Positions 2,196-3,433 of a DNA stretch of 28,400 bases are shown piece after piece. A program made the translations under genes and the position numbers. The notes under the pieces are model-generated. The model saw only the letters and a list, made by a program, of their open reading frames with translations. It ran no database searches and was not told where the DNA came from. The stretch's first letter is position 1, and each line of letters begins with the position of its first letter. Origin of the DNA: a virus; the IMG/VR virus record IMGVR_UViG_3300006802_000405, positions 1 through 28,400 of that record. One strand, given 5' to 3'.

Positions 2196-2413
2196 CCAAA
2201 CGACCGTATGGAAAATTGACACGAGGAGGGGGTGGCCTGGCGCTGCGGATCGCGGATGAAAATGCCGGCGCGGCCCGAGGCTTGTCGGTCGCCAGCCGGG
2301 GCGCAAAAAGTGCGCCTTTGGGGGGGGGTGGGGGCCTCGTGCGTAGGGGGGGTCTCACAAAAATATTTCCCACTTTCCCGGCCCCTAGTGCGGATCGTGG
2401 AGCTTCGCGATGA
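2192..2413 (+). CDS. Doubtful small ORF, Gly/Arg-rich
   Basis: A 73-codon frame starting in an ATGA overlap with the previous gene and ending over the start of the methyltransferase gene. The product is low complexity, with RGGGG, a run of five Gly and many Arg, Ala and Pro, and no motif I recognise. Translational coupling at its start argues for it. The homopolymer G-runs and hairpin in this stretch argue that the DNA may be conserved as a site rather than a protein. If it is not coding, this is the longest non-coding stretch in the first 11 kb. Confidence 0.3.
   Translation: MTKRPYGKLTRGGGGLALRIADENAGAARGLSVASRGAKSAPLGGGGGLVRRGGLTKIFPTFPAPSADRGASR
2298..2352 (+). other. Hairpin followed by G-runs (possible G-quadruplex or DNA site)
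   Basis: GGCGCA (2300-2305) pairs with TGCGCC (2311-2316) around an AAAAG loop. Runs of nine G (2320-2328), five G (2330-2334) and seven G (2346-2352) follow. Homopolymers this long occur nowhere else in the window. With GGGG at 2298-2301 there are four G-tracts on one strand, enough for a quadruplex. It could be a processing or packaging site, a transcription pause or simply relaxed sequence between modules. Confidence 0.4.
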
Positions 2414-3171
2414 CCTTGCGTATTTTGGATTTATTTGCTGGCATTGGCGGGATGAGCTACGGTTTGACCTTGGCTTCTCCGTTGTTTCAGCCGGCTGGGT
2501 TTGTTGAGGTGGATAGTTTTTGCCGTGCGGTATTGCAAAAGAACTTTCCTGGTGTTCCTGTTTTTGGCGATGTGAGGGATTATCGTGGCGGAGAGGTCGG
2601 ATCAGTTGATGTTATTTGCGGAGGGCCCCCATGCCAGCCTTTTTCCACAGCCGGAGACCGGGACGGGATGGCGGATGACCGTTGGCTCTGGCCTGAGATG
2701 TATCGGATCGTGGTTGCCGAGAGGCCGCGTTGGGTTGTTGTTGAGAATGTTTTTGGCTTCCTCGAGATGGCGCTCGAGGAGGTGTGCGCTGACTTGGCGA
2801 GTGCGGGGTACGTTGCATGGCCGGTTGTACTTGGAGCTGTATCCGTTGATGCCCCGCACTGGCGACGGCGAGTTTTTGTTGTTGCAAACGCCGACTTCGA
2901 CGAACAAGCCGGCGGAAGACCCGGAGAGGTTTCGGGCCCGAGCGTTGAGGAACGGTTATCGGAATTCGACGCGGTACAACGGGCTGGAGGCGCAGATTGT
3001 TTATGGCCTGGGGGAGGGTGGCGATGGGCGTCTGAACCCGGAGTGGCTCGAATGGCTGATGGGGTTCCCGGTCGGGTGGACAGAAATCGAGCGTTAGGGA
3101 ATGCTGTTGTTCCGCAGATATTGGAGATGTTTGGCTTGGCGATATTGGAGGTTGAATGTGAACAGGCTTGA
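2410..3171 (+). CDS. DNA cytosine-5 methyltransferase (short phage type)
   Basis: A 253-residue enzyme that would transfer a methyl group from S-adenosylmethionine to C5 of cytosine. Motifs in order: I, DLFAGIGG (7-14); IV, GGPPCQPFS with catalytic Cys75 (71-79); VI, VVVENV (109-114); VIII, HWRRRVFVVA (150-159); and X, ALGNAVVPQ (228-236). The target-recognition segment between VIII and X is only about 60 residues, is rich in Gly/Glu/Arg and looks poorly structured. The ATG at 2410 has GGAG 8 bases upstream. Codons are richer in third-position T than in the replication genes, which suggests separate acquisition. Most of the gene is overlapped by a second credible frame (2585-3097). Likely role: protecting phage DNA from host restriction. 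Confidence 0.93.
   Translation: MTLRILDLFAGIGGMSYGLTLASPLFQPAGFVEVDSFCRAVLQKNFPGVPVFGDVRDYRGGEVGSVDVICGGPPCQPFSTAGDRDGMADDRWLWPEMYRIVVAERPRWVVVENVFGFLEMALEEVCADLASAGYVAWPVVLGAVSVDAPHWRRRVFVVANADFDEQAGGRPGEVSGPSVEERLSEFDAVQRAGGADCLWPGGGWRWASEPGVARMADGVPGRVDRNRALGNAVVPQILEMFGLAILEVECEQA
2585..3097 (+). CDS. Overprinted methyltransferase-associated protein nested in the methyltransferase gene
   Basis: A 170-residue frame with a GTG start at 2585, lying wholly inside the methyltransferase gene. GAGGG ends about 8 bases before the GTG. The product does not look like a chance shadow. It has CALTWRVRGTLHGRLYLE (67-84) followed by a PLMPRT-type segment, LQTPTST (100-106) and LNPEWLEWLMGFPVGWT (150-166). 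From memory, these three blocks, in this order, typify phage proteins encoded beside or within C5 methyltransferase genes and usually left as hypothetical. Its most conserved block lies opposite the methyltransferase's EPGVARMADGVPGRVDR. Function unknown; it may help target recognition, since the enzyme's own recognition segment is minimal. Separate translation is an inference. Confidence 0.6.
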   Translation: MAERSDQLMLFAEGPHASLFPQPETGTGWRMTVGSGLRCIGSWLPRGRVGLLLRMFLASSRWRSRRCALTWRVRGTLHGRLYLELYPLMPRTGDGEFLLLQTPTSTNKPAEDPERFRARALRNGYRNSTRYNGLEAQIVYGLGEGGDGRLNPEWLEWLMGFPVGWTEIER

Positions 3172-3433
3172 GTGTTTGGAGGCTGCGATCGGCGCGGTTT
3201 GTAACGATCGAGAGGATACGCATGGCGATCCTCACGAATCGTTTCAGAATGTTGCTGATATGTGGAGCATGGTTGCGAAGACGGAGATCCGGCCTTGGCA
3301 AGTGTGTTTGATGTTGGCCCAGATGAAGATTGGGCGCATTGTGGATGGTGATCGGCGTCATGCGGATCATTATGTGGATGCTGCGGGGTATGTTGCTCTT
3401 GCGGTGGAATTAATAACTGAGAGGAAAAATTGA
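3158..3433 (+). CDS. DUF6378 family phage protein
   Basis: A 91-residue protein starting at the GTG at 3158, which has GGAGG about 6 bases upstream. The frame is open back to 3101, but those extra codons are Trp/Arg-rich and overlap the methyltransferase. The sequence follows the DUF6378 pattern: an N-terminal helix ending in CNDREDTHGDPHESFQNVADMW, then IRPWQVCLMLAQMKIGRI and HADHYVDAAGYVALAVEL. These small helical proteins are common in phage genomes and may relate to MazG-like all-alpha nucleotide hydrolases, but activity is unproven. It overlaps the methyltransferase stop by 14 bases and the next gene by one. Confidence 0.8.
   Translation: MNRLECLEAAIGAVCNDREDTHGDPHESFQNVADMWSMVAKTEIRPWQVCLMLAQMKIGRIVDGDRRHADHYVDAAGYVALAVELITERKN

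Follow-up and report, generated by a model that had tools for sequence, protein, structure and literature searches.

Two overlapping frames of one phage gene, both read from the same strand, most probably encode the two chains of a single C5-cytosine methyltransferase, with the nested chain as its recognition-bearing small subunit; we give this reading a probability of roughly 0.8. We have very high confidence that the nested frame is a genuine gene on which protein-coding selection acts in its own right. The gene lies in a 28.4-kb viral record (IMG/VR IMGVR_UViG_3300006802_000405, positions 1-28,400), the whole of which is called the window below.

Motifs and Predicted Fold of the Large Frame

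The large (alpha) frame matches PF00145 (E 2.4e-38), the match being limited to residues 4-161, and phrog_363 (E 2.4e-70). Motifs I, IV (PCQ), VI (ENV), VIII and X are all present, with invariant residues in 16 and 62 homologues. The AlphaFold2 model has the fold of a C5 catalytic domain with a mean pLDDT of 83, in which motifs I-VIII and X mostly exceed 85, residues 193-226 stay below 50 and the recognition segment is of low confidence or disordered. The solved fold closest to this model is that of M.HhaI (Z 25.7, rmsd 1.9 over 190 residues). An ordered small domain, a feature of the monomeric enzymes, is absent from the alpha model, and alpha is accordingly predicted by the model to fold like a C5 methyltransferase minus its small domain. 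The canonical motif IX (LxPxxxxxLMGF) was searched for in the large frame and is absent, the sequence at its position being non-canonical. The claim of the earlier note that the enzyme frame keeps all catalytic motifs therefore stands for motifs I-VIII and X but not for motif IX, as a motif IX-like sequence is found in the nested frame instead. The coordinates of all features are listed in Table 1.

Table 1. Features of the overlapping methyltransferase locus, positions counted from the first letter of the window
Feature	Position	Strand	Remarks
Large (alpha) subunit, C5-cytosine methyltransferase frame, motifs I-VIII and X	2410..3171	+	253 aa
GAGGG, Shine-Dalgarno-like site, 6 nt before the nested GTG	2574..2578	+	read from the sequence
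Putative small (beta) subunit, nested ORF, +1 frame, GTG start	2585..3097	+	170 aa; phrog_1008 E 2e-18
QLMLF, nested residues 7-11, opposite the stretch just before motif IV	2603..2617	+	matches the sliding-clamp consensus QLxLF
Motif IV, PCQ with the catalytic cysteine, alpha frame	2629..2637	+	P74, C75 and Q76 invariant in alignments A2 and A6
Motif VIII, HWRRRVFVVA, alpha frame	2857..2886	+	R152 and R154 invariant
Variable target-recognition segment between motifs VIII and IX	2893..3031	+	probably functional in the nested frame, judged from homologues
Motif IX-like LNPEWLEWLMGFPVGWT (nested), opposite EPGVARMADGVPGRVDR (alpha)	3032..3082	+	near-invariant, 87 nested proteins
Motif X, ALGNAVVPQ, alpha frame	3091..3117	+	G230 and N231 invariant; in the nested frame instead in split relatives

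In the gap that separates the methyltransferase start from the upstream replication gene (end 2195), long G runs (ggggggggg t ggggg, 2319-2334) could be slippage-prone or regulatory. For the downstream gene (3101-3433) the matches are DUF6378 (E 4e-25) and the PHROGs families of phage 'phosphofructokinase'. A GTG near 3160 is probably where this gene truly starts; it overlaps the methyltransferase stop, so that both genes look translationally coupled.

Homologues and Annotation of the Nested Frame

The peptide blocks, the GTG start and the GAGGG site that the earlier note had read in the nested frame are all present. Across the family, conservation of the nested frame already sets in upstream of motif IV, and a start with a Shine-Dalgarno-like site lies near the nested start position in 88 of 155 loci, whereas 39 were expected. 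The proposed homologues beyond this phage exist: next to the match to phrog_1008 (Table 1), tblastn with the nested protein returned 111 phage records (Paenibacillus, Mycobacterium, Lacticaseibacillus and others), and no matching model was found in Pfam or NCBIfam. These homologues always overlap a methyltransferase; stand-alone nested genes without one were found at 0 of 260 loci.

The nested ORF already carries annotations: it is called 'g62/g55 internal gene' in the Paenibacillus larvae phages Lily and Shelly, and a second 'DNA methyltransferase' in other phage records. PHROG 1008, which is itself labelled 'DNA methyltransferase', is the family of the nested second-frame protein (2585-3097 in the window), and automated annotation will therefore call a methyltransferase twice per locus. 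A description of phage methyltransferases of the overlapping two-frame type was not found in the open-licence literature, an absence that counts as weak evidence, and the searched passages of a survey of P. larvae phages are silent on the overlap.

Outside the phage records, phrog_1008 matches occur in 17 of 299 sampled Pseudomonadota genomes. By their organism titles, several of which denote metagenome bins, the genome loci come from Bacillota, Pseudomonadota, Bacteroidota, Spirochaetota, Acidobacteria, Planctomycetes and Calditrichota, and many of them are probably prophages. The overlapping pair is also present in the E. coli PCP07014 prophage (L301:5367-6128), where the record says pseudogene and each frame is broken by a stop at nearly the same position (LLV*IG and LFE*DL).

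Selection on the Nested Frame

Loci were gathered by a profile of the nested protein, by a pattern in the methyltransferase frame alone and from bacterial genomes. A nested ORF in the +1 frame was present in all 180 relatives of the first sets (nested profile and methyltransferase pattern), in 80 of the 80 loci selected by the methyltransferase pattern alone, and in 260/260 loci once the bacterial genomes were added. In the codon-shuffle null the enzyme protein and its codon usage were kept fixed over the region from motif IV to motif X in 137 loci; these are mutually related and not independent trials, and each locus was compared with its own null. The +1 frame was fully open in 109 of the 137 loci, with 2.9 expected, and stops are rare in it, 43 being observed against 546 expected, whereas the +2 frame used as control showed no effect (1716 observed, 1749 expected). 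The profile of the nested family scored 148 bits on the real sequences versus 62 on the codon shuffles, and its score lay above every shuffle in 121/121 loci outside the profile-building set. The relatives of E. coli Dcm, a small negative control, have 40 stops versus 50 expected and thus no open nested frame. The view that both frames are real, constrained proteins is borne out by these numbers. For the window gene alone the open nested frame has a probability of P = 0.005 when its own synonymous codons are shuffled and of P = 0.155 with average phage codon usage. Its openness in the window by itself is only modestly surprising, and the comparative evidence is decisive.

This value for the single gene is also what would speak for a shadow ORF, i.e., an open and seemingly conserved nested frame forced by the methyltransferase protein and the codon bias alone, because this one GC-rich gene stays open in 15% of its synonymous re-codings with phage codon usage. 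For the family, codon shuffling rejects the shadow explanation, and we consider it scarcely credible: the 137 loci include AT-rich ones, the +2 control is clean, the profile score is in excess and the Dcm control has no open frame. Moreover, the glutamine of a QLxLF motif at the nested N-terminus lies opposite threonine, serine, proline and alanine codons all ending in CA, and is therefore not dictated by the large-frame protein. A constraint at the level of the nucleotide sequence or the RNA, as another cause of the conserved open frame, fits poorly with stop avoidance in +1 but not in the other alternative frame of this strand, and with an excess found at the level of the protein profile.

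Recognition Segment and Motif IX

The frame in which the recognition segment is maintained was read from the substitutions in 22 independent pairs whose recognition segments are similar. The changes at alpha codon positions 1, 2 and 3 number 386, 174 and 148 between motifs VIII and IX, compared to 166, 122 and 355 over the non-overlapping motifs I-III in these pairs (Fisher P 2e-40). Since nested codons have their wobble base at alpha position 1, it is in the nested frame that the recognition segment is maintained; this looks new and runs contrary to the published prediction for M.EcoHK31I. With this substitution pattern, an overprinted partner aiding recognition, as the earlier note had suggested, is the best reading of the data. 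In a broader set of pairs the shares at alpha positions 1, 2 and 3 are 0.50, 0.22 and 0.28 in the motif IX region, motifs IV-VIII show mostly large-frame constraint, and beyond the nested stop the normal large-frame pattern is seen. No gene closely related to that of the window was found, and the frame of its recognition segment is therefore assigned from the homologues.

The motif IX-like consensus of the nested proteins is LNPxWxEWLMGFPxGWT, and the register of the two opposed segments in Table 1, which had been proposed before, was confirmed. In Dcm the canonical motif IX is RRLTPRECARLMGF and lies in the same frame as motif X; the nested LNPEWLEWLMGF is similar to it. Neither the profile of the nested family nor the IX-X region of the split relatives described below gave a sequence match to solved structures, including any methyltransferase small domain. 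Motif IX is therefore assigned by its resemblance to the canonical pattern and by its position. Modelled alone, the nested chain reaches a mean pLDDT of 65 and a pTM of 0.30 in AlphaFold2, with moderate confidence only at a hairpin (68-88) and in the motif IX region, and Foldseek with this low-confidence model returned no fold match below E 0.4.

Several LWPTPxAxD repeat units are often present in the nested recognition segment, as in L056:1795-2862 and many relatives. By analogy, recognition modules may have been duplicated here, as in the multi-specific phage methyltransferases.

Motif X and the Split Relatives

At 236 of 260 loci the large frame is open through motif X, which is thus part of the large ORF. 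In L056 (= L181, Brevibacillus), L076, L079, L189, L200, L214 and L256, however, many stops interrupt the large frame downstream of motif VIII, and it is the nested frame that continues via LNPDWVExLMGFPIGWTD into motif X, e.g., RLKACGNAVVPAQ. In a tree of 110 N-terminal regions of large subunits, six of these split loci require four state changes, of which supported branches force at least three, so close relatives have motif X in different frames. Motif X has shifted to the nested frame in some relatives, giving rise to M.AquI-like split enzymes, which looks new. As the nested chain carries motif X in the split forms, it must belong to the enzyme there.

Two further loci, L156 and L249, were considered as other architectures and rejected, as they look like indels that shift both frames. 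A single large-frame stop in the recognition segment, with the nested frame open, is found in L048/L125 (L048:93-642), L179:1623-2421 and L207:2330-3152, which are either truly truncated large subunits or sequencing errors. In L083:130-2100 (IMGVR_UViG_3300025112_000507) the overlapping alpha/beta pair is present twice in tandem, the copies being frame-shifted relative to each other.

A Clamp-Type Motif at the Nested N-Terminus

The nested protein of the window begins with VAERSDQLMLF and so carries QLxLF in its terminal tail. Q-L-x-L-F is the established consensus for binding to the bacterial beta sliding clamp (PMC4549789). QLx[LMI]F is found at the nested N-terminus in 40 of 155 loci, where codon shuffling gives an expectation of 0.83, and in 87/220 with the genome loci added (1.65 expected), the genome loci being biased by the query; QLxLF is missing from many family members. 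Judged from this motif, the nested N-terminus may tether the enzyme to the sliding clamp of the host, and a clamp-type motif on the small subunit of such an enzyme looks new.

Two-Chain Model and Its Alternatives

According to the favored model, the large subunit would supply the catalytic domain with motifs I-VIII and the helix of motif X, and the nested ORF, translated from its own GTG with the Shine-Dalgarno-like site, would supply the small domain with recognition segment and motif IX. The large-frame DNA between motifs VIII and X would be kept mainly as a connector. The two chains are expected to assemble, methylation would need both of them, and the nested chain would set the specificity. 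In relatives, motif X has changed frames, leading to M.AquI-like splits, and the nested QLxLF might recruit the enzyme to the host's sliding clamp. Being a solitary phage enzyme, it would most likely shield the phage DNA from host restriction.

Alternatively, the nested protein could be real without being a subunit, i.e., an overprinted partner with another role, such as a sliding-clamp-binding regulator, next to a self-sufficient large frame. Such a role would agree with the strong over-representation of QLxLF at the nested N-terminus and with a large frame that is open through motif X at most loci, but the recognition segment evolves in the nested and not in the large frame, the large-frame model contains no ordered small domain, and the split relatives have motif X in the nested chain, which is part of the enzyme there; we therefore regard it as unlikely. 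Still less probable, and in our view very improbable, is programmed ribosomal frameshifting after motif VIII, by which both frames would be joined to a single chain with motifs I-VIII, the recognition domain and motif IX. Downstream of motif VIII the +1 frame of the split relatives indeed holds recognition domain, IX and X in this order, but a joined product would not require the nested reading across from motifs IV-VIII, and this frame is already conserved ahead of motif IV and has its own start with a Shine-Dalgarno-like site in more than twice the expected number of loci.

A wider form of the two-chain reading can be put forward only tentatively, and we think it somewhat more likely to fail than to hold. 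The overprinted subunit would combine a recognition domain with a clamp-docking tail and direct methylation to the replication fork, and the family would be a large, mostly unrecognised class with the recognition half of the enzyme in an alternative frame of the catalytic half and with motif X repeatedly switching frames.

Implications and Comparison with Known Systems

With the two-chain reading, the two-polypeptide layout of one E. coli enzyme would become that of a widespread class of phage and prophage methyltransferases, and the family is an unusually clear example of long-maintained dual coding on the same strand. It would follow that the called ORF of many supposedly single methyltransferases misses half of the enzyme, and expression of the annotated ORF alone might therefore yield inactive or non-specific protein. 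The QLxLF tail suggests a possible link of phage DNA methylation to the replication clamp, and the frame switches offer a natural series for studying how overprinted genes are split and rejoined.

In M.EcoHK31I the small-subunit gene reportedly lies inside the large-subunit gene in another frame. This enzyme is a two-polypeptide C5 methyltransferase (Lee, Kam and Shaw 1995; described in PMC3404938). Its large subunit carries motifs I-VIII, X and the predicted target-recognition domain, and its smaller subunit motif IX only (PMC3404938). The expectation of a new arrangement has to be given up in view of this enzyme and of the P. larvae phage records that already annotate the nested ORF: the arrangement is a variant of the known two-polypeptide methyltransferases and not a wholly new type. 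In the distribution of motifs the window agrees with M.EcoHK31I, having motifs I-VIII and X in the large chain and, by resemblance, motif IX in the second; its second gene overlaps the large one in the other frame and is under selection. However, M.EcoHK31I is part of a restriction-modification system, whereas the window holds a phage gene with no restriction enzyme recognised alongside; the predicted recognition domain is in the large subunit of M.EcoHK31I, whereas the recognition segment of the window family evolves in the nested frame; and the clamp-motif-like QLMLF at the nested N-terminus of the window is unlike M.EcoHK31I. The phage setting and the wide spread likewise set the family apart.

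In M.AquI, motifs IX-X lie in the second subunit together with part of the recognition region (PMC3404938). The window shares with it the two chains, the second with part of the recognition region and motif IX, but has motif X in the large frame and a second ORF that is nested and overlaps motifs IV-VIII; motifs IX and X are together in the second chain only in the minority of the family formed by the split relatives named above. PHROG 1008 and the 'internal gene' of phages Lily and Shelly are the identical family to that of the nested ORF, the PHROG label obscuring its nature as a second chain in another frame. With the monomers M.HhaI and M.HaeIII the alpha chain of the window has the predicted fold of the large domain in common, but these enzymes have both domains and every motif in one chain.
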